Origin: a virus
Length of the DNA: 37,377 nucleotides
Direction: 5' to 3' (one strand)
Virus record (IMG/VR): IMGVR_UViG_3300043395_001285
Coordinates: 1 to 37,377 of that record
Position numbers and translations under genes: made by a program. This document shows positions 6,234 to 35,877 of the stretch, piece by piece; positions within the stretch are counted from its first letter, which is position 1; every line of letters begins with the position of its first letter. The notes beneath the pieces are model-generated. The model worked only from the letters and a program-made list of their open reading frames with translations. It had not been told where the DNA came from and made no database searches.

Positions 6234-6472
6234 ACGGCAAGGGCAGTGGACGCCGTCAACAGGCGGTTGGTGAGCAGGAGATGGAAGCTCGGTGGCTGGC
6301 AACATTCGGCAAGACAACCCCCCATACCGGAGAGCAGGACGTTGGTTCCACACGAGAGAGAGAGTCTGGAGCGAGCGATTCTTTGCGCTTGCCTGACGGA
6401 CCCGGAGGCTCCAGCACAACTGGTGCGAGACGGGATTCTGACGAGGACGTTGTTTTCCCAGAAGAAGTCTGA
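6230..6472 (+). CDS. overlapping frame at the helicase 5' end (possible true helicase N-terminus in another frame)
   Basis: 80 residues from ATG 6230, which is coupled to the previous stop (ATGA) and has GGAGCGG upstream. The first 30 residues (MNGKGSGRRQQAVGEQEMEA, then RWLATFGKTT) look like real protein; after the run of six Cs at 6318-6323 the frame becomes Gly/Ser-rich filler. A single-base shift in that C-run would join this start to the helicase frame. It is therefore either the helicase leader separated by a frameshift or sequencing error, or a short overlapping gene. Confidence 0.35.
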   Translation: MNGKGSGRRQQAVGEQEMEARWLATFGKTTPHTGEQDVGSTRERESGASDSLRLPDGPGGSSTTGARRDSDEDVVFPEEV

Positions 6473-7670
6473 GGTTTTGTGGCGCGCTATCTCTTCGATG
6501 GCGCGTCTGAAGATGCGAGTAGACCCGCTGACGGTGTCGGCCTACCTGCGAGAGCATGGCGCTGACAAGTTTGTTCCGGGAGAGTACATCGGCGAATTGC
6601 TGAACGAAGTCATCGTGCCATTGCCGATGATTGAGTACGCCCGGGGATGGGTGCTGGCACTTCGTTCGCTGGTATCTGCGCTGGAAGATTCGCTTGGCGC
6701 CAAGCAACGGCATCAGGTGATTGCCGCGAGAGACCTGTTGACCCGTGATGGGTCGGCGGTCATGACCTACCCCATCATGACCCTTGCCGGGTTGCGGGGT
6801 GGGTGGATGCCCGGCGAGGTCGATGTGCTAGCGGCGGCAAGTAATAGCGGCAAGACCACCCTGCTGTCCACGTTCGCCCGGCGTTGGGTGGCAGATGGCA
6901 AGCGTGTGTATTACGCCGGATTCGAGTTACCTGCGGCGAATCTGCGGCTCCAATGGGCGGCGCATGAGGCCGGATTCATGCCCGGTGACATCGTGAGTGG
7001 GGAGTACCTGACACGCCCTGATGCTGAGCGTGTAAAGGAGCGGGTGCGAGATGCGCTGGCCGTGCAGGAGGAGCGCGTAGACTTCCTTCGGTGCGCTGAC
7101 GCATCGTTCGTAGATGTCAAGTCTCTTCAGGAGATGGGGCGTGAAGCGGCGGCGTGGGGTGCTGATGTTTTTATCATCGACCACATCGACCACGTATCTG
7201 GGTCGGGCGACCTGCACGCCCAGTCTCGGCAAGTGGTGTCCACCGTCCTAGAGCTTGCCAAATCAACCGGTGTGCGGTATCTGGTGGCTACCCAGCTAAA
7301 CCAGCAGGGACTTGCCCAAGACACCCTTCGGTCACACCGTCCTGTGCGCGAGGAGTTCATCAAGCAGGGAGGCCACAAGAAGGAGGTGGCTACGTTCATG
7401 ATGGGGCTAGCCAGAGCCATCAACCCTGACGCCAATCCTGACGATGTGAAGGCTGTGCGGGACCGCCGCGCCAGCGTCACCACCATCGAGGAGCCGTATA
7501 CCTCACAGGTCAACGTCATGAAGCATCGGCACTACGGGGACAGGGTCGGCAAGTCTCGCAAGTTGACATGGGAACGTGGCGAGTATACCGACTATCTTTC
7601 TGACGAGGAGCGCAAGGCCAGTTCGAGGGTCTTGCGCCGCAACGATTTGCACTTGCAATCCGTAGACTAA
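6246..7670 (+). CDS. DnaB-type replicative DNA helicase
   Basis: Up to 474 residues. The recognisable fold begins near residue 33 (VPHERESLERAILCACLTDP), the N-terminal DnaB domain, followed by a RecA-type motor. Walker A is AAASNSGKTT (196-205, Lys203), Walker B is VFIIDHIDH (308-316) and motif H4 is VRYLVATQLNQQG (343-355). The C-terminal strand MKHRHYGDRVG carries conserved basic residues. In the family it unwinds DNA as a hexameric ring at the fork. The start is uncertain: GTG 6246 has a weak site, TTG 6342 would give a canonical N-terminus after GGAG, and the ATG at 6230 would join through a one-base shift at the C6 tract. It is in the same operon as the loader-like gene at 3767. Confidence 0.92.
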   Translation: MDAVNRRLVSRRWKLGGWQHSARQPPIPESRTLVPHERESLERAILCACLTDPEAPAQLVRDGILTRTLFSQKKSEVLWRAISSMARLKMRVDPLTVSAYLREHGADKFVPGEYIGELLNEVIVPLPMIEYARGWVLALRSLVSALEDSLGAKQRHQVIAARDLLTRDGSAVMTYPIMTLAGLRGGWMPGEVDVLAAASNSGKTTLLSTFARRWVADGKRVYYAGFELPAANLRLQWAAHEAGFMPGDIVSGEYLTRPDAERVKERVRDALAVQEERVDFLRCADASFVDVKSLQEMGREAAAWGADVFIIDHIDHVSGSGDLHAQSRQVVSTVLELAKSTGVRYLVATQLNQQGLAQDTLRSHRPVREEFIKQGGHKKEVATFMMGLARAINPDANPDDVKAVRDRRASVTTIEEPYTSQVNVMKHRHYGDRVGKSRKLTWERGEYTDYLSDEERKASSRVLRRNDLHLQSVD

Positions 7671-7682
7671 ACCTTCATTTTC

Positions 7683-7818
7683 GTGGTATAGGCGGGGCGC
7701 AACAGCGTTGTCCCCGGGTAGGCTATGTACCTCCGGATAGCCGACTCTCTCCCCGGACCAGTCACGCTCCACTGCGCTCGTAAGGAACGCCACACGGAGT
7801 TCCTCGCGCCTATACCAC
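7683..7818 (+). ncRNA. predicted structured RNA (or DNA cruciform) closed by a 12-bp stem
   Basis: GTGGTATAGGCG (7683-7694) pairs perfectly with CGCCTATACCAC (7807-7818). Three hairpins lie inside: 7695-7714 (eight pairs, one bulged C, AGC loop), 7721-7742 (GGCTAT with ATAGCC, ten-base loop holding ACCTCC) and 7783-7804 (AGGAAC with GTTCCT, ten-base loop). The whole forms a multi-branched domain filling the only sizeable gap in the early operon. The G-U pair in the first hairpin favours the + strand. The phosphoesterase start at 7835 follows by 16 bases and lacks a Shine-Dalgarno site, so a 5' leader role is possible. No known RNA class is recognised. Confidence 0.6.
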
Positions 7819-7834
7819 CCCTCCCCCAATCAGC

Positions 7835-9199
7835 ATGCCACTTCGCAACGACCATGTTGGGTGGTCTCCAGAGGAATACGCTCGGCTTTGTGTGCTGTCC
7901 GCCCGTGGAATGGCGGCATCGCGTGTTGCCGCCACCCTGAACAACGAGTTTCACGGCGGCAAGGATATACGCACAGAACGCTCCGTCTCGATGAAGCGCA
8001 CCAAGACAAAGGTGCGAGTGGCAAGAAATCTGACGCCACCTCATTCTGGCAACCGCATGGACCAAGAGGTCGAAGTCACCGAGGGGCAATCGGCAACAGA
8101 GGCTCGGTCGGTCGGCAAGCGAATCAAGACAGTCGATGATTTGCTTAAGCATATCAAGGCTGACATGAAGCGCTTCGAGATTGAGAAAAGCGAGGCGACG
8201 AAGTATGAGACTGCTACGCGAGACCCAGAGACTGGCAAGGCCAGTGTCACCGAATTGCACCGGGTCTTCGTTCGACTAAAGCCCAAGGCCGGGCCATCTA
8301 TTATCGAGGCGGTCGAGGCGGTGATTGCCGGGGCCATGTCCTCGCGCACCAATATCCCAGCCCACAAGAAGGCTCCGCCGGACGGAGTTATGCAGGTGCT
8401 GGTAATTGCGGACCCGCACGTTGGCAAGTATGCGTGGTCGCACGAGACCGGCTGGGAAGATTACGACATCTCAATCGCCGTGAAGTTGCTTCGCGACAGC
8501 GCGTACGAACTGCTGTCTGATGGCAATAGCCGTGGAATTAGCCGACGGGTCATCATGCTTCTCGGCGATTACTTCCACTACGACACCCCGCACGGCGCAA
8601 CCACCAAGGGCACTCCGCTGGACCGGGACGGGCGTGTCGAGAAAATGCTGGAGGCTGGGTCGGCGGCGTTGTTCGACATCATCGAGGCGAGCGCCAAGTC
8701 TATTCCGACAGAAGTGATTCTCGTCCCGGGCAACCACGATGCGGTGCTGACCGTGGCCCTCAGGCAAATCTTGACAGCCCACTTCAGGAATGATAAGCGG
8801 GTCGTGGTTGATGCTCGGGGGACTAGTCGCAAGTACATCGAGCATGGTCGGTGCCTTATTGGGATGACGCATGGCGACAAGGCGCGGAAGCGATTGGGCG
8901 AACTGATGGCGGCTGAAGCCAGCGAGGCGTGGGGCAGGAGCCGTTACCGGGAGATACACACAGGTCACCTGCATAGCGTGGCCGAGGTCCAGACCATCGG
9001 AGGCGTGGTTATCCGCACGGCCCCGGCGCTATGTCCTCCGGACGGCTGGCATGCCATCGAGGGGTATGTGGGAGCGCCGAGAGGAATGGAGAGCTATTAT
9101 TATCATACCTCCGGTAGTCTGGTCGGTATGACAATGTCAAGCCCTGATTCCAATGGCAAAGCCGCGCAAGTCAAACGTCTTCACAAACCGAAAGGCTAG
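7835..9199 (+). CDS. calcineurin-like metallophosphoesterase with N-terminal HTH-like segment
   Basis: 454 residues. All five metallophosphoesterase motifs are visible: ADPH (Asp193, His195), LLGD (Gly244-Asp245), PGNHD (299-302), THGD (His346) and TGHLH (377-380). The first 55 residues (WSPEEYARLCVLSARGMAASRVAATLNNEF) resemble a Myb/SANT-like HTH, so the protein may be guided to DNA. Family members cleave phosphodiesters with two metals, and Mre11/SbcD relatives act on DNA ends; the exact substrate here is unknown. ATG 7835 has only a C-rich stretch upstream, which is unusual next to the structured element. The gene overlaps the next start by 47 bases. Confidence 0.85.
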   Translation: MPLRNDHVGWSPEEYARLCVLSARGMAASRVAATLNNEFHGGKDIRTERSVSMKRTKTKVRVARNLTPPHSGNRMDQEVEVTEGQSATEARSVGKRIKTVDDLLKHIKADMKRFEIEKSEATKYETATRDPETGKASVTELHRVFVRLKPKAGPSIIEAVEAVIAGAMSSRTNIPAHKKAPPDGVMQVLVIADPHVGKYAWSHETGWEDYDISIAVKLLRDSAYELLSDGNSRGISRRVIMLLGDYFHYDTPHGATTKGTPLDRDGRVEKMLEAGSAALFDIIEASAKSIPTEVILVPGNHDAVLTVALRQILTAHFRNDKRVVVDARGTSRKYIEHGRCLIGMTHGDKARKRLGELMAAEASEAWGRSRYREIHTGHLHSVAEVQTIGGVVIRTAPALCPPDGWHAIEGYVGAPRGMESYYYHTSGSLVGMTMSSPDSNGKAAQVKRLHKPKG

Positions 9200-9437
9200 C
9201 GTCTCTATTCACCGGAACGGGCTGTCCATCGAGATTGCCGACGTTCCGGCGGTGGATGCTGGAGTGGTGGCAAAGGAGTTGATGGACATGATTCGCCAGC
9301 TTCAGCGCGTCGGCTATGACGAGTTGATTGCCGATGCTGGCGGGGTGCATGGCGGAGTTCTCGAAGTCCCGGACGAGATTGACGGGGACGACTTCGTTCT
9401 TCCGCCTGAGGCCAAGCGCATTGGGTTCGTCCGGTGA
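9153..9437 (+). CDS. small hypothetical protein
   Basis: 94 residues from ATG 9153, overlapping the phosphoesterase 3' end. A basic N-terminus (AKPRKSNVFTNRKASVSIH) leads into short strands and a helix (AVDAGVVAKELMDMIRQLQRVG), then an acidic C-terminal half. It ends in a GTGA overlap with the resolvase-like gene. No recognised family; close linkage suggests it works with one of its neighbours. Confidence 0.6.
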   Translation: MAKPRKSNVFTNRKASVSIHRNGLSIEIADVPAVDAGVVAKELMDMIRQLQRVGYDELIADAGGVHGGVLEVPDEIDGDDFVLPPEAKRIGFVR

Positions 9438-9793
9438 ACCTGACAATCCCCTACGCTTTGCTCGCCAGAGATAACGAGCGGATTGGCGGCATGATTCGCG
9501 GTCGGCTCCTGCTCTCCAAGAAGTACCGCAAGAAGAAGGAGATGGCGGGGCTGTCGGCCATGAGCCAGTACAAGGGGGACCCGATTGATGGTCCAGTACG
9601 GCTAGAAGGCGTGGCCTACTGGCCTGACCGTCGGCGGAGAGACCTGCTCTTTTTTGCGAAGGCTCTGCACGACGCACTCGAAGGCGTCTGCTATGTAGAC
9701 GATAGCCAGATTGCAGAGGTGTCGTATCGGGTCGGGGGAATCGACCGCGACAATCCCCGGGTAGAGTTAGCCATAGAAAGCATCAAGGGGTAG
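9434..9793 (+). CDS. RusA-like Holliday junction resolvase
   Basis: 119 residues, the normal RusA size, from GTG 9434 (GTGA overlap). The diagnostic segment is WPDRRRRDLLFFAKALHDAL followed by GVCYVDDSQI, where RusA enzymes have R-R-D-x-D-N and D-D-S catalytic elements. The second Asp of the first element appears to be Leu72 here, so activity or metal binding may differ. RusA relatives resolve four-way junctions before packaging. It is the last gene of the early operon, and its stop lies inside the stem-loop at 9783-9814. Confidence 0.72.
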   Translation: MNLTIPYALLARDNERIGGMIRGRLLLSKKYRKKKEMAGLSAMSQYKGDPIDGPVRLEGVAYWPDRRRRDLLFFAKALHDALEGVCYVDDSQIAEVSYRVGGIDRDNPRVELAIESIKG

Positions 9794-9814
9794 GACTTAT
9801 GTCCTACCCCTTGA
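9783..9814. terminator. perfect 14-bp stem-loop between converging operons
   Basis: TCAAGGGGTAGGAC pairs with GTCCTACCCCTTGA around a TTAT loop. It covers the stop codon of the resolvase-like gene and lies six bases from the last stop of the leftward cluster. It is well placed to stop transcription from both sides, although neither arm is followed by a U-run, so it may act in mRNA 3'-end protection or with a factor. Confidence 0.75.
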
Positions 9815-13492: not shown

Positions 13493-14680
13493 TTAGGCGA
13501 TGCCGCAGAGCTTGCGGTCGGCGTCGTTCCAGTTAGCGGTGGCGACCTTCAGGGCGTCCGGCAGGGAGTCTCCGACTGCGAGGACAAGGGAGCGGACCAT
13601 GCGGAGCATCCGGGTGCCGACGATGCGGCGGAGCTTATGGTCGGACACCGACTTGCGGAGGGCGAGGATGGCGTCGCGAATCTCGTCCTCGGGACAGAGG
13701 GACTTCTCAAGGTCGGCGTCGTAGTCCATCATCTCGATGACGAAGCGGTCAAGGGTCGCTCCGTCCAGAGCATTGCGGCCTACGTAGACCTTGTCGGCTC
13801 CGGTGCCCAAGGTGTTCATCGAGCCGATGACCACGGTGTCGGGGTGGCGATTGACGCGCTCCCCGGAGGGGAGATACATCCAGCCGTTGGCGAGGAAGGC
13901 ATTGAGCACCGTGACCACGGAGGGGTCGCCGTTGTCAAGCTCGTCGAGGAGAACGACGCCGCCGGAGCGGTAGGCCCGGATAGCCGGGGACTCGACGTAT
14001 GACTCCGTCCCGGTGGAGATATTCGGGACGATGCGACCCAGAAGCTTCGCTTCTGACATGCCGGGGCTGAAGGACAGCGCGGCAAAGTCAAGGCCGAGCA
14101 CCTTGGAGACTTGCTCCGCAAGGTAGGTCTTGCCGGAGCCAGCCGGGCCGATGAGCAGGACGTTCTTGTCGGAGACGTTGGCGGCAATCAACCGGAGGAC
14201 GCGCTTCAGGAGCTTGTGCGGGGTGCCTTCGACTTCGACAGGCGGAAGGTCTCCGACCTGCACGACCACCGAGCCGGGGGCGGAGGACGGCATGTCCTTG
14301 AGCTTCTCCGCGACCTTGGCGCTAACGGCCTCCTCGATGGCATTCTTCAGAATCTTGATGAACGAGTCCATGGAATCCTTCGGGGTCGGGGTGTCGGTAG
14401 AGTCTACGGTAGACTCTACAGCGCTGGGCTTCTGCGTCGTTCCCTTGCGGTTGGCACCGAAGTTGGGACGGGGACCGTCGATGTGAACGAACGGGGGCTT
14501 GCCGGGGACTACGGAGTAGTCCTGCGGACCCAGCCGGGCCATAAATCGCTCGGTCTTCTGGGGATGGATGGTGAGCACGGTGATGTATCCATCACCGTGG
14601 ATGGTCTGAACATCGCCGTAAGTGATGCCATCACGGAGAAGGGATTCCGCGACAATCTTGACTCTCTGACCGATACGCAT
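13493..14680 (-). CDS. MoxR/CobS-type AAA+ ATPase
   Basis: 395 residues. A small N-terminal region (1-60) resembling an RNA- or DNA-binding barrel and a Ser/Thr/Pro linker (80-105) precede the AAA+ core: Walker A IGPAGSGKT (177-185), Walker B VVLLDELDN (242-250), sensor 1 GSMNT (286-290) and the arginine-finger segment LDGATLDRF (305-313). Such ATPases work with a vWA-type partner, here probably the next gene 16 bases away. Possible roles are remodelling a host complex or a metal-chelatase-like step; none is proven. ATG 14680 follows GAGG and the promoter at 14734-14763. The linker codes through the palindrome at 14397-14419. Confidence 0.85.
   Translation of the reverse strand: MRIGQRVKIVAESLLRDGITYGDVQTIHGDGYITVLTIHPQKTERFMARLGPQDYSVVPGKPPFVHIDGPRPNFGANRKGTTQKPSAVESTVDSTDTPTPKDSMDSFIKILKNAIEEAVSAKVAEKLKDMPSSAPGSVVVQVGDLPPVEVEGTPHKLLKRVLRLIAANVSDKNVLLIGPAGSGKTYLAEQVSKVLGLDFAALSFSPGMSEAKLLGRIVPNISTGTESYVESPAIRAYRSGGVVLLDELDNGDPSVVTVLNAFLANGWMYLPSGERVNRHPDTVVIGSMNTLGTGADKVYVGRNALDGATLDRFVIEMMDYDADLEKSLCPEDEIRDAILALRKSVSDHKLRRIVGTRMLRMVRSLVLAVGDSLPDALKVATANWNDADRKLCGIA
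14397..14419. repeat. second tandem pair of GTAGA-S-TCTAC dyads, inside the ATPase gene
   Basis: GTAGAGTCTAC (14397-14407) and GTAGACTCTAC (14409-14419) are separated by one base. This is the same unit as at 2224-2246 with the central bases swapped. It encodes part of the VESTVDST linker, where codon constraint is probably weak. Confidence 0.7.
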
Positions 14681-28049: not shown

Positions 28050-31000
28050 ATGGCCGTTGGTGACTACGACCTAAAGCCGTTTACGTTGCCCGTCGGAGAA
28101 GTCAAGGCAACTCAGGCGCGCAATAACGACAATCTCCTACGGTCTAAATTTGTTGACCATCAGGGAGATGTTGTCGCCCATCCGACCTCTGGCGCGGCGC
28201 TTCCGGGGACTGGCGAAGAGGGGCAGATTTTTGTTGATACGAGCACCTCGACCATCTACATCTGGCACGACGGAGCGTGGGAATCCCTCAGTGGCGGAGC
28301 CAGTAGCATTGGTCACTACGGGGCATTCTCGGACTTTACGGACCAGTATGCGGCGGCGGCAAATACCGCCTATCCCATCACACTGGACACGACCGACCTG
28401 TCGGCTGGCGTGTCCGTGGTCAGCAGTTCCCGCATTACGGTCACCTATGCGGGTATCTACAACATCCAGTGGAGCGGGCAGTTCGTTAATACGGACAGTC
28501 AGATTCACGATGTAAACATCTGGATTAAGATTAACGGGACCAACGTTGCTGGCTCGAACGGGCAGGTCTCTGTTCCAAATCGGCACGGAAGCGTAGACGG
28601 TCACGTCTTGCCGTCGTGGAACTTTGTTTTGTCTCTGAATGCCGGAGACTATGTCCAGTTCTACTGGCAGACGACCAGCACGTCGGTCTCCATCCAGACT
28701 CTTCCGGCAAACAATCACCCCACGACCGCCTCCGTTATCGTCACGGTAACCGAGCAGGCTGGTGGGACTGGGCCACAGGGAAATCCCGGCATTATGGGTC
28801 TTCCGGGGGCACAGGGACCGTCTGGGCCATCTGGACCGCAGGGTTCCTCTGGGGCTTCTGGGGTGCCGGGTATTATGGGCCTGCCGGGGGCGCAGGGGCC
28901 GTCCGGGCCGTCAGGTCCGCAGGGCGTCTCCGGTGTCTCTGGTGTCCCCGGAATTATGGGCCTGCCCGGAGCACAAGGCGCGACGGGACCTTCTGGCCCG
29001 CAGGGTGTCTCTGGCGTCTCCGGTATCTCAGGCGTCCCCGGTATTATGGGGTTGCCCGGCCCGCAGGGGCCTTCCGGCGTATCCGGCGTCTCAGGCGTGT
29101 CCGGCGTGTCCGGAGTATCTGGCGTGTCTGGCGTACCCGGCATTATGGGTCTGCCGGGCACGATTGGACCGAGCGGTCCGAGTGGCCCTTCTGGTCCGTC
29201 TGGGGCTACCGGTCCATCTGGTCCATCCGGTCCTTCTGGTCCGCAGGGCGTCAGTGGCGTCTCCGGCGTCTCTGGCGTCTCAGGCGTTCCGGGGATTATG
29301 GGGTTGCCCGGCGCACAGGGTGCGACCGGTGCGTCCGGGCCGAGCGGTCCGTCTGGACCTCAGGGTGTTTCCGGTGTGCCGGGAGCAACTGGGCCTTCTG
29401 GACCTGCTGGCCCGACTGGCGCAACCGGTCCGTCTGGCGTTTCTGGTGTTCCGGGGATTATGGGCTTGCCGGGCGTCTCTGGCGCGTCTGGCGTGCCGGG
29501 AGCCTCTGGTGTGCCCGGCCCAAGTGGGCCGTCTGGCCCGAGCGGCCCTGCCGGTTCAACGGGTCCGTCTGGCCCGTCTGGGCCGAGTGGTCCCGCTGGC
29601 CCCTCCGGCCCGTCTGGACCTGCCGGCGTCTCACCGTGGTCCCTCAATGGCACCAGCGTCTATTACACCGCAGGATACGTTGGGATTGGTACCAGCATAC
29701 CGGGGTCACCGCTTGAGGTGATTGGCGATGCCACGGTCAGTGGCGATTTCGTCGCTGGAAGCAACTTGCTCCGCACGCGCAACTCGACCAGTCGGGTTGG
29801 CGTCAATACGGCAACCCCCGGATACACGCTGGATGTCAATGGCGATGCCAATGTCCGGACGGGTTTTGTCTATCGCATTAACGGCACCAGCGTCTTGTCG
29901 GCCACCACGCTTGGCAGTGGTGTCACGGCGTCATCGTTGACATCGGTTGGGTCGTCGCTGTCTATCAACGGTAATACGGCACTTCATACTGGCAATTACG
30001 GTTCGTACAGCACGTTTGGCGGTAAGGTAATCTCCGGCGGTAACAACGGTTTTGCCAACGATGTGTATTACGTCGGAGTCCGGAATCCAATCTGGTCGTT
30101 TGGCAATGCTTCTTCATACGGCATAAGCTATTACCAAGGGGCCGCTGGCATAGGCGGAGTGGACACCATTGGTTTCTCTGTCAATGGGACAACGTCCGCT
30201 ACGTCAAATAATTTTGCGATTGCACCCGGCGCGTCCTACGTCAACAACAACGTCATCCTTCACGCTGGCAACTATACGTCGTACTCGCCATCGTTGACGG
30301 GTAGCGGCGCGAGTGGAACGTGGGGCATCAGCATCTCGGGTAATGCAGGAACGGTAACGAATGGTGTCTACCTGTCCGGAACGCAGGCCATTACTGGCGT
30401 GAAGGAGTTCAATGTTCCGGCTGGCGCAACATACGGAGGCGCGTCCGGCAACAACGTTCTGACGGTGTACCAGCCAACCGCTGGAGCCGACGCGATGATG
30501 ACGTTTCACGTCGGTGGTGACTGGGCTGGCTATTTTGGACTTGGCGGTGCGGAGAATGACCTCGTCTGGACGGGTTGGTCAGTAGGCTACTCGCGTTGGC
30601 GCATTCTGCATTCTGGCAACTATAGCTCCTACGCGCTCCCGTTAAGCGGTGGGACGTTGACTGGTAATCTGACGTTTGCCCAGAGTAGCAACCGTGTGAT
30701 TCAGTACGGAAGCGCCTCAAACTGGGCGTACTATCTCGCCAGTGAAGGCGACAATTTTAGGTTGTACGATGCGCAAAACACCACGTTTTTGCACGCCGTG
30801 TATAATGGTGGCGGGCCTGCAAAGTATACCGAACTCAACGGCACACTTCGCGTAACTACTGGCGGAAGTGCAACGGTTGGCGGCAATACTATTCTTAACG
30901 CTGGCAACTATACCTCGTATGTCAACTACGGTGCGCCGAACCTTCGAGGCACCTATCAAATAAGTAATTGGAATCAGACGACATATCCAAACTCGCACTT

Positions 31001-32798
31001 TTTGTCGTCGGAAAGCGGTACAACTAACGCTCCAACCGGGGATTATACCTACGGTATTCAGTATTGCTTTCATCGAGATGGAGCTTCGTATCGAACGCAA
31101 ATGGTTACGTCGCTTTACAGTGACTTAAACATTTGGGTTCGTAATTCACGCGATAGCGATGTGTTTACTAGTTGGAAGGCATTGTTGCATTCTGGCAACT
31201 ACACGTCTTACGCGCCCTCGCTAACGGGTAGCGGTGCGAGTGGAACGTGGGCCATCAACGTTACTGGAAGTGCTGGAAGCGTGGCGTGGAGCAACGTGTC
31301 AAGCAAGCCAACGGATATTATGTATTACGCTGGCAATACGCTTGACGCTAACACGATGCCAGCAAATAGCACTGGCTTTACCTATGTTAGCAACGCTCCA
31401 TACTATGGGCCGATTGTTCGCTTTAGCAGTTGGCCGTCAAGTTCTGGTGCATACGATTTGTGGTTGAATGCCGCATATAGCGGAGGTGGCAATCAACTAT
31501 CGTTTAGAACAAGAAATGGAGATAACTCTACTTTTAATCCGTGGAAAAGTATTCTCCACGATGGAAATTATAGCTCATACGCTCTGCCGTTGAGTGGTGG
31601 GACGCTGACGGGAAATGTGAACTCCAGCGGCAACATCACCGCAAATGCATTCCTACTGAATGGTGGATTCACTATCTCAGCGAGTGGCGCTTATGGTGCT
31701 GTAAATAACTGGATTCAGCTTAACGGAACCTATGGGTTGTATGCGCCATCTAATAACAACGCGCATTTTTACCCTAACGACGCAGACTATGGTTCTTGGC
31801 GTATAGCCGGAACGCGAAACGGGTGGTACGGCATCTATTTCGATAGCGGTTCCACCCTAATGATGAACAGTAGCGAGGTCGGCTTTCATCGCTCTGGCTA
31901 CGGCTGGCAGATGCGTTGGATGGCGGGAACGGGCTATGTGCATAAGGGAAATCCCGGCGGTGGAACCGAAGCAACCATCCTTGATTCTAGCAACTACAGT
32001 TCATACGCCCTTCCGTTAAGCGGTGGGACGGTGACCGGAGTAACGTACTTCCTTGGCAATATGGGAAGTGGCGTGTATTCTGGAAATACGGCGAACGCGA
32101 GACTTCAAGCGTTTTCTAACGACGGTGGCACGGCGATGATGTCATTTCATCGTGCTAATGCATACGCCGTCAATATGGGCCTTGACCCGGACAACGTACT
32201 GCGTATTGGTGGATGGTCTGCTTCGGCAAATCGTTGGCAGTTGGATATGTCCGGAAATATGACCGTTGCTGGTAGTTCGACTGCGTCTAATACGATGTAC
32301 TCGTACAACTGGTTCCGTTCATACAACGCCACGGGTTGGTATAATGAGACGTATGGCGGCGGCATCTGGATGTCCGACTACACGTGGGTGCGCGTATATG
32401 GAACTAAGGACTTTTACGCGACGGCGGCGATTGCGGCGGTTGGCAACATCACGGCGTACTACTCGGATGAGCGGCTTAAGACCAAGGTTGGCGACATTGA
32501 CAACGCGCTCGCCAAGGTGCGGAAGCTCTCTGGGTTCCTGTACGTTGAGAATGAACTGGCTCGCAAGGTCGGTTATAAAAACACCAAGCAACAGGTCGGT
32601 GTTTCGGCTCAACGGGTTCGTGAGGTATTGCCAGAGGCCGTGTCGCTTGCACCGTTTGACATTGAGACTGACCGCGAAACTGGCGAGTTGTTGTCAAAGT
32701 CTGGCGAGGAATACTTGACGGTGGACTACTCGCGCCTTGTGCCGTTGCTGATTGAGGCCGTCAAGGAGCTTGCCGATATGGTGGAGGGGAGGCACTAA
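28050..32798 (+). CDS. long tail fibre with collagen-like region and C-terminal S74 chaperone domain
   Basis: 1582 residues. The N-terminal 238 residues probably form an attachment domain (EGQIFVDTSTSTIYIWHDGA) and a TNF/C1q-like beta domain (TLDTTDLSAGVSVVSSSRIT). Residues 239-528 are collagen-like Gly-x-y triplets. The shaft then has about seven ILHSGNYSSYALPLSGGTLTG-type repeats. The C-terminus is the peptidase S74 intramolecular chaperone: YYSDERLK with Ser1472 as the predicted self-cleavage site, then GVSAQRVREVLPEAV and YSRLVPLLIEAVKEL. Such domains trimerise the fibre and cut themselves off. The mature fibre would end near residue 1471. It is probably the main receptor-binding protein. 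Confidence 0.93.
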   Translation: MAVGDYDLKPFTLPVGEVKATQARNNDNLLRSKFVDHQGDVVAHPTSGAALPGTGEEGQIFVDTSTSTIYIWHDGAWESLSGGASSIGHYGAFSDFTDQYAAAANTAYPITLDTTDLSAGVSVVSSSRITVTYAGIYNIQWSGQFVNTDSQIHDVNIWIKINGTNVAGSNGQVSVPNRHGSVDGHVLPSWNFVLSLNAGDYVQFYWQTTSTSVSIQTLPANNHPTTASVIVTVTEQAGGTGPQGNPGIMGLPGAQGPSGPSGPQGSSGASGVPGIMGLPGAQGPSGPSGPQGVSGVSGVPGIMGLPGAQGATGPSGPQGVSGVSGISGVPGIMGLPGPQGPSGVSGVSGVSGVSGVSGVSGVPGIMGLPGTIGPSGPSGPSGPSGATGPSGPSGPSGPQGVSGVSGVSGVSGVPGIMGLPGAQGATGASGPSGPSGPQGVSGVPGATGPSGPAGPTGATGPSGVSGVPGIMGLPGVSGASGVPGASGVPGPSGPSGPSGPAGSTGPSGPSGPSGPAGPSGPSGPAGVSPWSLNGTSVYYTAGYVGIGTSIPGSPLEVIGDATVSGDFVAGSNLLRTRNSTSRVGVNTATPGYTLDVNGDANVRTGFVYRINGTSVLSATTLGSGVTASSLTSVGSSLSINGNTALHTGNYGSYSTFGGKVISGGNNGFANDVYYVGVRNPIWSFGNASSYGISYYQGAAGIGGVDTIGFSVNGTTSATSNNFAIAPGASYVNNNVILHAGNYTSYSPSLTGSGASGTWGISISGNAGTVTNGVYLSGTQAITGVKEFNVPAGATYGGASGNNVLTVYQPTAGADAMMTFHVGGDWAGYFGLGGAENDLVWTGWSVGYSRWRILHSGNYSSYALPLSGGTLTGNLTFAQSSNRVIQYGSASNWAYYLASEGDNFRLYDAQNTTFLHAVYNGGGPAKYTELNGTLRVTTGGSATVGGNTILNAGNYTSYVNYGAPNLRGTYQISNWNQTTYPNSHFLSSESGTTNAPTGDYTYGIQYCFHRDGASYRTQMVTSLYSDLNIWVRNSRDSDVFTSWKALLHSGNYTSYAPSLTGSGASGTWAINVTGSAGSVAWSNVSSKPTDIMYYAGNTLDANTMPANSTGFTYVSNAPYYGPIVRFSSWPSSSGAYDLWLNAAYSGGGNQLSFRTRNGDNSTFNPWKSILHDGNYSSYALPLSGGTLTGNVNSSGNITANAFLLNGGFTISASGAYGAVNNWIQLNGTYGLYAPSNNNAHFYPNDADYGSWRIAGTRNGWYGIYFDSGSTLMMNSSEVGFHRSGYGWQMRWMAGTGYVHKGNPGGGTEATILDSSNYSSYALPLSGGTVTGVTYFLGNMGSGVYSGNTANARLQAFSNDGGTAMMSFHRANAYAVNMGLDPDNVLRIGGWSASANRWQLDMSGNMTVAGSSTASNTMYSYNWFRSYNATGWYNETYGGGIWMSDYTWVRVYGTKDFYATAAIAAVGNITAYYSDERLKTKVGDIDNALAKVRKLSGFLYVENELARKVGYKNTKQQVGVSAQRVREVLPEAVSLAPFDIETDRETGELLSKSGEEYLTVDYSRLVPLLIEAVKELADMVEGRH
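28764..29632 (+). repeat. collagen-like coding repeat with seven GIMGLPG modules
   Basis: Gly-x-y triplets run without break. Seven copies of a P-G-I-M-G-L-P-G unit divide blocks made of GPSG, GVSG, GATG and GPQG, so the DNA contains seven near-copies of an ATTATGGG-centred segment. One block has a GVSG run repeated six times. Such arrays often change length by slippage or recombination. Confidence 0.88.
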
Positions 32799-33877: not shown

Positions 33878-34792
33878 ATGGCGCGGTTTTACGCGACGTT
33901 TGACAACAGCACGAACTCGTCCATTGAGGCAACGTCTGGGAACAACTACTACCAGCGCCTTGCCATCACCAATGGGACGACGCTCAGAAGTGCGCTGGTC
34001 GCGGCGCGTGACGCGCTTTCGGCGGCGATGTACGGGCAGTTGAATGCCGCCAACCAGAACGGGTCGCTGGGTGTGACCATCCCGACGGATGGCTTCACCA
34101 TCGGTGGAGGAACGCTGTCTGGAAGCAATGTCTATACCAACGCGCAGGCGGTATGGCAGAGCGACCCACGGGCCGTCAAGACTTCCGTGTCTACGGTGAC
34201 CGATATTACCGTGGCGAACTCGACGGCGGTCAGCCCAGCAGACCCGTTTTCCATCTCCTCGACGCTCTACACGGACGCAACGACGGCCGTGCAGAATGTG
34301 CTGAATGGCATTGCCGCGCCGTCCGGGTTCAGCGGAAATGGCCCGTATGCGCGGCTTGGACAGTACCCGTGGCGGACACTGGCGTCCATCTGGACGGATT
34401 TCCCGCTGACGTTTATCGCGTGGGATGATTACAGCCCCGGTGCGCCCAGTACTTACACGCCGACCCAGCCCGCCTCGCAGTCTCGGACCCTTCCGCTGAC
34501 CATCACCCTGCCGTGGGACTGGCAGTTTACGGCCGACCGGGCTGGGAATGCCATCATTTATGCGCGGCTTGACAAAACGGATGGTGGCTCAAACTTCTAC
34601 GTCCTCGCCAACAACATTTCCACGGCCGCGAGCACGGGGTACTACAATGTCACCCTTCCGGCGAACTCGTTGCCAGTGGGGACGTATCAGTTGAACTACC
34701 GACTGAAGTTTCAGGACCCGTATATCACGACGCATTACGGGGACCAGATTGAGTACTTCAGCGGCAACAACTTCGTCACCCTGACGGTGTAA
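33878..34792 (+). CDS. virion-associated protein (unidentified)
   Basis: 304 residues. A Ser/Asn-rich helical first half (ATSGNNYYQRLAITNGTTLR, then SALVAARDALSAAMYGQLNA) and a beta-rich C-terminal half (LPLTITLPWDWQFTADRAGN, then GYYNVTLPANSLPVGTYQLN) suggest a fibre or tail accessory protein. It overlaps the glycosyltransferase start by one base (TAATG), and the pair may work together, for example as acceptor and enzyme. No recognised family. Confidence 0.6.
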   Translation: MARFYATFDNSTNSSIEATSGNNYYQRLAITNGTTLRSALVAARDALSAAMYGQLNAANQNGSLGVTIPTDGFTIGGGTLSGSNVYTNAQAVWQSDPRAVKTSVSTVTDITVANSTAVSPADPFSISSTLYTDATTAVQNVLNGIAAPSGFSGNGPYARLGQYPWRTLASIWTDFPLTFIAWDDYSPGAPSTYTPTQPASQSRTLPLTITLPWDWQFTADRAGNAIIYARLDKTDGGSNFYVLANNISTAASTGYYNVTLPANSLPVGTYQLNYRLKFQDPYITTHYGDQIEYFSGNNFVTLTV

Positions 34793-35877
34793 TGCGCCTG
34801 CATCTCCTTGGCCTCCCGCATACCGTGACGCGCCCAGCGTTTTCGCACTGCGCGTTTACGGGGAAGGTGCAACGGTTTAGCCCGATGATGCGTCCGTTCG
34901 GGTATGAGCTTGTGCATTACGGGGTGGCGGGAGCCGAGAGTGGGGCTAACGAGCAGGTGGACGTGATGACGGAGGCCCGGCAACACCAGTTGCTGGGGCA
35001 CGCCTTCGAGGATAAGAGCCGCCTGTACGAGACAAACGTGGCCGTGGATAGCCCGTTGTTCCGCGAGTTTAACGCCGCGCTTAAGACCGAATTGGAGCGC
35101 CGCGTCGAGCCGGGGGACATAGTCCTAAATACCTATGGGTATGGGCACTATGAGGCGGTGCATACCCATCGGGGCATTAACATCGAGTCTGGCATTGGGT
35201 ATCCTGACTGCTATTTGCCATTTAGGGTTTACGACTCATATGCGTGGCAGGCGTTCCAGCAAGGCAAGCACGGCTGGGGAGGCTCCTCATATGAGTGGGT
35301 CGTGCCGAATTATTTCGATGTTTCCGAGTGGCCCGTCACACTATCTCCCCAAGGGTACGTCCTTTACTTTGGCCGCATAGGCAGGCACAAGGGTTGCCAC
35401 GTTGTTTCTGAGATTGCCCGGAGTATGCCGGAAACAATGTTTGTTTTGTGCGGCCAAGGAGACCCAACGGAATTCTTGACAAGCCCAAACATTGAGTACC
35501 GTCCTCCCGTCAGTGGCCTTGACAGGGCCGCGTTACTTGGTAATGCCAGCGCGGTGCTGATGCCTACGCAATACATCGAGCCGTTTGGCAAGGTTGCCGT
35601 AGAGGCCATGCTTACCGGCACCCCGGTTCTGGCTAGTCCATTCGGCGCCTTCCCGGAGATTCTGGAGGCTGGCAAAACGGGATTTTTGCCACGGGTATTA
35701 GCCGAGTGGGTCCATGGAATTCAGCTAGCACCAAGCCTTGACAGGCGCTACATTGCTAACAGTGCGCGGGAGCGGTACTCCCTAGAAGCTGTTGGTCCGA
35801 TGTATGACACTGTGTTTCGTCAACTCCACGGCCTACATAGTGGACGCGACTGGTACTCCTATCCGGGCAGGTGGTAG
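34792..35877 (+). CDS. GT-B glycosyltransferase (family 4 type)
   Basis: 361 residues. YFGRIGRHKGCH (192-203) opens the nucleotide-sugar-binding half, and EPFGKVAVEAMLTGTPVLAS (263-282) is the E-x7-E signature of retaining GT4 enzymes (Glu263, Glu271), followed by PFGAFPEILEAGKTGFL. It transfers a sugar from a nucleotide donor; donor and acceptor cannot be seen. It lies in the late operon between virion proteins, which favours glycosylation of a virion or surface component over DNA modification. Confidence 0.85.
   Translation: MRLHLLGLPHTVTRPAFSHCAFTGKVQRFSPMMRPFGYELVHYGVAGAESGANEQVDVMTEARQHQLLGHAFEDKSRLYETNVAVDSPLFREFNAALKTELERRVEPGDIVLNTYGYGHYEAVHTHRGINIESGIGYPDCYLPFRVYDSYAWQAFQQGKHGWGGSSYEWVVPNYFDVSEWPVTLSPQGYVLYFGRIGRHKGCHVVSEIARSMPETMFVLCGQGDPTEFLTSPNIEYRPPVSGLDRAALLGNASAVLMPTQYIEPFGKVAVEAMLTGTPVLASPFGAFPEILEAGKTGFLPRVLAEWVHGIQLAPSLDRRYIANSARERYSLEAVGPMYDTVFRQLHGLHSGRDWYSYPGRW

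Follow-up and report, generated by a model that had tools for sequence, protein, structure and literature searches.

A conserved structured RNA, absent from Rfam, located just past stop codons in several groups of phages

Does a strongly structured gap between two phage genes hold a conserved RNA, and if so, what would that RNA do? The question arises at positions 7671-7834 of the window, the whole stretch of viral DNA analysed here (37,377 nt; IMG/VR record IMGVR_UViG_3300043395_001285, positions 1-37,377). On the plus strand, this gap separates the gene for a DnaB-like replicative helicase (6246-7670; PHROG 19, Pfam DnaB/DnaB_C) from that for a calcineurin-like phosphoesterase of the DNA repair exonuclease family (7835-9199; PHROG 704, Pfam Metallophos). 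It contains a putative structured RNA element of about 136 bases (7683-7818, plus strand), whose closing stem P1 begins 12 bases after the helicase stop codon. A first-pass annotation had described a perfect 12-bp stem around three further hairpins, ending 16 bases before a start codon that lacks a ribosome site. Stem and spacing are as it described them: 7683-7694 (GTGGTATAGGCG) pair perfectly with 7807-7818 (CGCCTATACCAC), the ATG stands at 7835, 16 bases past P1, and no Shine-Dalgarno sequence precedes it (CCCCTCCCCCAATCAGC). Two inner hairpins with 10-base loops were likewise found (loops 7727-7736, GTACCTCCGG, and 7789-7798). The three hairpins, however, really make up two arms on a three-way junction: P4 and a compound P2/P3 arm, which contains a nested hairpin.

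The whole window contained two perfect inverted repeats of 12 bp whose arms lie within 140 bases, versus a mean of 0.33 in shuffled sequences. Besides P1, there is a palindrome between convergent genes (9783-9814, TCAAGGGGTAGGACTTATGTCCTACCCCTTGA) that is terminator-like on the minus strand and has a counterpart of different sequence at the same place in two related contigs (L001 and L003, near 6961-6991). Two similar double palindromes, GTAGACTCTACAGTAGAGTCTAC (2224-2246) and GTAGAGTCTACGGTAGACTCTAC (14397-14419), lie far apart in the window, the latter inside an AAA ATPase gene. The minimum free energy of the element was -61.9 kcal/mol (z = -3.97 against dinucleotide shuffles). In this GC-rich genome, however, its folding energy ranked only 63rd among 2,192 windows of equal length after GC regression, and the minus strand folded as well as the plus strand (-61.7). 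Energy alone is thus unconvincing, and the case for the element rests on comparison.

Related phage contigs were fetched through the downstream phosphoesterase. In three of them (L001-L003), a gap again separates helicase from phosphoesterase, in that order, and holds a diverged copy with the same closing-stem plan, GGGGYGCRACAGCG on the 5' side and CCACYGCRCTCGTAAGG on the 3' side. A motif search of the fetched contigs revealed that L002 and L003 each hold a second copy, on the opposite strand, and that L005 holds one. Pattern scans of IMG/VR then gave about 25 contigs with copies, 100-146 nt in size, from several phage groups; pattern matches in L023, L089, L091, L094, L097, L100 and L102 were judged to be chance or coding. 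Among 84,980 bacterial and archaeal species, a strict short-P3 pattern gave no genuine copy (one match, chance by inspection and unscored by the model), a scan that is blind to copies of the window type because their P3 arm is longer. Blastn against phages and plasmids returned chance matches only. No close isolate of the window phage was found, and the nearest isolate proteins are remote.

We aligned 13 copies, all from outside the lineage of the window (alignment A8), and trained a covariance model, R1, on this alignment alone. R1 matched the window at 7682-7819 with 39.0 bits (E=3.8e-5 in 0.96 Mb), the syntenic copies of L001 and L003 with 31.4 and 29.1 bits, and the second copy, in L003 and L098, with 44-49 bits. 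Since none of the window, L001 and L003 sequences had trained R1, their matches are an independent test. The first-pass annotation had proposed such a covariance-model search, together with a test for covariation, and had named relatives lacking the element as an observation that would count against it. Many phages that share the phosphoesterase do lack it, which shows a patchy distribution rather than an absence of structure.

The helices covary. RNAalifold recovered P1, P2, P3 and a compound P4 arm from A8, with ten pairs changing on both sides. For the named structure, 96.8% of the cells in A8 were paired and the covariation score was 0.255, compared with 0.123 in shuffled alignments (0 of 500 as high), and sliding the partner by 1-3 columns destroyed the signal. 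A second alignment of 12 sequences including the window (A10) was confined to the core, that is P1, P2, the internal loop, the base of P3, the junction and the base of P4. MAFFT could not align long and short copies through the interiors of P3 and P4, which A10 omits, so that its pair counts refer to the core; a CCTCG anchor placed the 3' side. Here 99.5% of the cells were paired, 8 of the 17 pairs changed on both sides, and the score reached 0.477 versus 0.189 in shuffles (again 0 of 500). The pairs of P1 vary fully (U-A, G-C, C-G, A-U), and pair 6 of P2 takes C-G, U-A, A-U and U-G. A chance fold of GC-rich sequence, to which only the modest energy rank would lend weight, is refuted by this covariation and by the match of the independent model; we consider its probability negligible.

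Nor is the structure likely to be a property of the DNA. All copies have G-U at pair 2 of P2, G-U cells outnumber A-C cells by 32 to 6 over all A8 pairs, and at one place R1 scored 144.5 bits on the sense strand versus 14.2 bits on the opposite strand. Together these observations point to an RNA of the sense strand and not a DNA cruciform. The first-pass annotation had entertained a DNA origin or cruciform beside a new phage RNA. An origin, cruciform, packaging or recombination site would fit the long inverted repeat, the adjoining terS gene in one group of phages, and two copies that look recombined inside the element, but it conflicts with the G-U pairs, the strand bias and the covariation of imperfect helices, and we regard it as very improbable. 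In these two copies (L106 3797-3927 and L107 10676-10806), the 5' half matches one terS-type subgroup and the 3' half another, and P1 is only partly paired; they arose either by recombination inside the element or through chimeric assembly, which would then have affected two contigs. A coding function was rejected as well, as no ORF overlapping the element has support and single-base indels distinguish the copies. The new phage RNA, in contrast, is strongly supported by covariation and by recurrence in other phages. By these comparisons, the element is genuine and a member of an RNA family that Rfam lacks, and we are highly confident that it is a conserved RNA.

The predicted common fold is a three-way junction, formed by the closing stem P1, an arm consisting of P2, an AC/CCAC internal loop and P3, a second arm P4, and the linkers GUA and CG. 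All parts of the window copy lie on the plus strand. P2 pairs GGGCGCA (7695-7701) with TGCGCTC (7773-7779) and is supported by covariation at pairs 4, 6 and 7 and by the invariant G-U at pair 2. It is followed by the internal loop, whose 5' side AC (7702-7703) is invariant in A10 and partly fixed by a search pattern, and whose 3' side CCAC (7769-7772) is also kept in the copies of L001 and L003 that were found by synteny. The P3 arm (7704-7768) is based on pairs between 7704-7708 and 7764-7768, seen in the fold and the core alignment, and has a variable apical part with the nested hairpin (7721-7742). The junction strand between P2 and P4, GTA (7780-7782), is invariant in A10. P4 (7783-7804) is a predicted AGGAAC/GTTCCT hairpin whose AGG/CCT base is kept in all copies, and the strand CG (7805-7806), placed by A10, leads back to P1. 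Between the window and L001 the arms differ and the core is kept. Overall, about 11 invariant unpaired bases cluster in the internal loop and the three-way junction, while the helices covary freely. The patterns that retrieved most of the terS-type copies fix GGGG.G..AC and CCAC..C.CTCGTAAGG, so that the invariance of the core bases is partly built in; P1, pairs 4, 6 and 7 of P2, P3 and the rest of P4 are free of them. Independent support for conservation of the core comes from L001-L003, which were found by synteny and have it too.

The nested hairpin carries the sequence ACCTCC (7729-7734) in its 10-base loop, which the first-pass annotation had called anti-Shine-Dalgarno-like. Bacterial sRNAs with anti-Shine-Dalgarno (CCUCC) loops are a known class, and the window copy and the terS-type copies share a loop of this type. 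The motif is indeed predicted to be unpaired in the window copy, and CCUCC is mostly so in L005, L095 and L104. Its syntenic orthologues in L001 and L003, however, have no unpaired CCUCC. Because the loop is paired or absent there, it is not the conserved function, and neither an anti-Shine-Dalgarno decoy nor the likeness to these sRNAs holds for the family.

We then compared the element with known RNAs. At the gathering score, Rfam release 15 gave no match in the window or in nine element-bearing loci. Even at E<=10, window positions 7600-7900 matched no family, ribozymes included, and in L095 there were only chance antisense matches. ARAGORN found no tRNA or tmRNA gene in the window; the first-pass annotation had recognised neither a tRNA nor a known riboswitch class. 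Rfam gave no match that would bear out the likenesses noticed by eye to the GCCACUG of cobalamin riboswitches, to a T-box motif and to the 16S 3' end, and these were dropped. A retron msr-msd RNA was rejected for lack of RVT_1 in seven element-bearing records (the control matched in three genomes), as was a guide RNA of the TnpB type for lack of PF07282, the family of TnpB/Cas12f-like nucleases that the search covered, in the same number of records (control positive). Among the titles and abstracts returned by searches of the open, non-subscription literature, none describes the element.

The phi29 packaging RNA (RF00044) is a phage RNA of about 120 nt with paired ends and a three-way junction. 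It shares with the element a general outline only, and several copies of the element adjoin the packaging gene terS. The differences are that cmscan with Phage_pRNA gave no match in the window or the element-bearing loci, that the phages concerned have TerS/TerL, and that the window copy lies between replication genes. A further RF00044 search was also silent, as was its control, so that this search is weak on its own. The nearest kind are GOLLD and ROOL, orphan phage RNAs of unknown function (PMC12286853). Like the element, they are phage-borne structured RNAs found by covariation, partly in metagenomes. They differ in being several hundred nt or more in length, often near tRNA islands, and in forming cages, whereas the element measures 100-146 nt, has another fold and no tRNAs in the window, and has no match in Rfam. 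Within this known kind of orphan phage RNAs the element is, as far as sequence comparison goes, a new family.

The copies are always on the strand of the preceding gene and start 0-24 bases past its stop codon, in several unrelated gene contexts. In the first, shared by the window and L001-L003, DnaB helicase and phosphoesterase flank the element, and the start of the latter is SD-less in the window and preceded by an SD-like GGAGAGG in L001. In L098 and L003, a gene with a DUF7192 homologue in the window is followed by the element, a promoter-like TTGACA-17-TATCAT and the gene of a 94-aa protein. In a third context, a small GKGDTPRPLSV protein precedes the element, and terS or a ParB/N6-N4 methylase gene follows. 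Where terS follows, in L095 and L104, a promoter-like site begins 2-3 bases past the element (TTGACG-16-TAGATT and TTGCCA-16-TAGATT, respectively); the ParB/methylase copies lie 23-30 bases ahead of the start codon. Finally, in L032 a 105-aa ORF is followed by the element, a terminator and a convergent gene. We found no promoter-like site ahead of the element in the copies scanned, and none in the window region. With next features that differ, what the copies have in common is the end of a gene upstream.

Two further observations concern these promoter-like sites. In L095 (425-466) and L104 (5872-5911), terS starts about 10-14 bases after the promoter-like -10, so that the terS mRNA of the terS-type phages may be nearly leaderless. 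On the minus strand of L003 (about 8838-8790) and at the same place in L098, what looks like an operator, the perfect inverted repeat CACCTATGTCAAGGGT...ACCCTTGACATAGGTG, shares bases with the -35 of a near-consensus promoter a short way past the element.

The first-pass annotation had also suggested a leader of the next gene. As a riboswitch, attenuator or translational-coupling bridge, the element would control the gene behind it, which in the window is the phosphoesterase without an SD. The helicase stop codon and the ATG of the phosphoesterase, 12 and 16 bases from the stem, are drawn together by P1, and the distance of the ParB/methylase copies from their start codon would also suit a leader. 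However, a leader should precede a constant class of genes, and the genes downstream are unrelated (phosphoesterase, TerS, ParB-methylase, 94-aa protein) or, as in L032, missing. A terminator or the next gene's own promoter-like site follows several copies, and L001 has its SD-like sequence. A leader thus fits poorly, and we consider it unlikely.

We tentatively favour another role, in which the element is a conserved phage RNA that is transcribed within the mRNA of its flanking genes and serves as a cis-acting module, at a 3' end or between cistrons. The constant end of an upstream gene, a next gene that is variable or missing and may have its own promoter, and two diverged copies in one genome favour a cis module over a leader. 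Cis elements would be expected to occur in this way, and L003 and L002 each carry two such copies, at different operon junctions. Recurrence, fold, covariation, strandedness and the position just past a stop codon can be read from the copies themselves; from these we infer transcription of the element and cis action on the upstream transcript. According to this model, the element would be transcribed as part of a phage mRNA from the strand of the flanking genes, and its folded core would either withstand 3'-to-5' exonucleases or be a recognised target of cleavage, whether by a nuclease of host or phage or by the element itself. The upstream message would thereby gain a defined, stable 3' end, separated from the next cistron; in the window, the helicase message would be uncoupled from that of the phosphoesterase. 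The RNase III processing sites of phage T7, structured intercistronic RNAs shortly after stop codons, may serve as a functional analogue. Unlike the element, these sites are irregular hairpins and have no conserved core at a three-way junction. Several points weigh against the cis module. A simple RNase barrier would need less sequence specificity than the core shows in its AC/CCAC loop, GUA/CG junction and fixed G-U. The element has no U-tract, and since P1 joins both flanks it is not by itself a transcript end. A short distance to the upstream stop codon is also the default expectation in a crowded phage genome.

The strongest rival to the cis module is a trans-acting noncoding RNA, which we rate as somewhat less probable. 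The module would be processed from the mRNA and persist as a small RNA. Through its conserved core it would bind a protein of phage or host, as scaffold or decoy, or else it would bind mRNAs through seeds in its loops. The discrete, compact fold, whose core is conserved while its arms change, and its variable genomic location are consistent with this, and among the terS-type copies the P4 arm, with its CUC-CUCC-GAG hairpin, varies no more than the core does. The element is also kept in phage groups that have unrelated head genes and share lysis, phosphoesterase and glycosyltransferase genes. Against a trans-acting RNA stand the lack of a promoter-like site of its own in the regions scanned, the two diverged copies in one genome and the CCUCC loop, which is not kept in the syntenic orthologues of the window copy.

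A more specific form of the cis module would be a self-cleaving ribozyme of a new class, cutting the polycistronic mRNA. Small ribozymes (hammerhead, twister-sister, pistol, hatchet and HDV-like/theta) are likewise compact, with a conserved unpaired core and variable helices, and some occur in phages; theta ribozymes are known from phage genomes (PMC10879173). The invariant unpaired bases among freely covarying helices resemble the make-up of such a core. However, Rfam ribozymes matched neither the window nor, beyond the chance antisense matches, L095. The topology is nested without the double pseudoknot of HDV, no known cleavage motif or nameable cleavage site is present, and the invariance is in part due to ascertainment, which makes a ribozyme doubtful. 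Taken more broadly, it is a long shot, if a somewhat better one, that the element is either a new self-cleaving class or a phage RNA scaffold capturing a host protein through the conserved junction, used by unrelated phages that apparently share a gene pool.

The phages of the first and third contexts have different head genes and share the phosphoesterase, the 94-aa protein, an amidase (70-78% identical) and a glycosyltransferase. In the window, these genes common to phages with unrelated portal, capsid and terminase lie at 1350-1802, 7835-9437 and 34792-35877. The gene content thus compared indicates strong mosaicism among these phages, and the shared genes suggest a shared host range. The window also encodes a 1582-aa protein with collagen-like GPSGPQG repeats (28050-32798), whose C-terminal region looks like a tail-fibre intramolecular chaperone.

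What emerges is an RNA family supported by covariation and absent from Rfam, carried by several phage groups at different operon junctions. Its clear helices and short conserved core make direct tests possible. Dense phage genomes keep structured RNAs between their genes, and annotation centred on proteins misses them.
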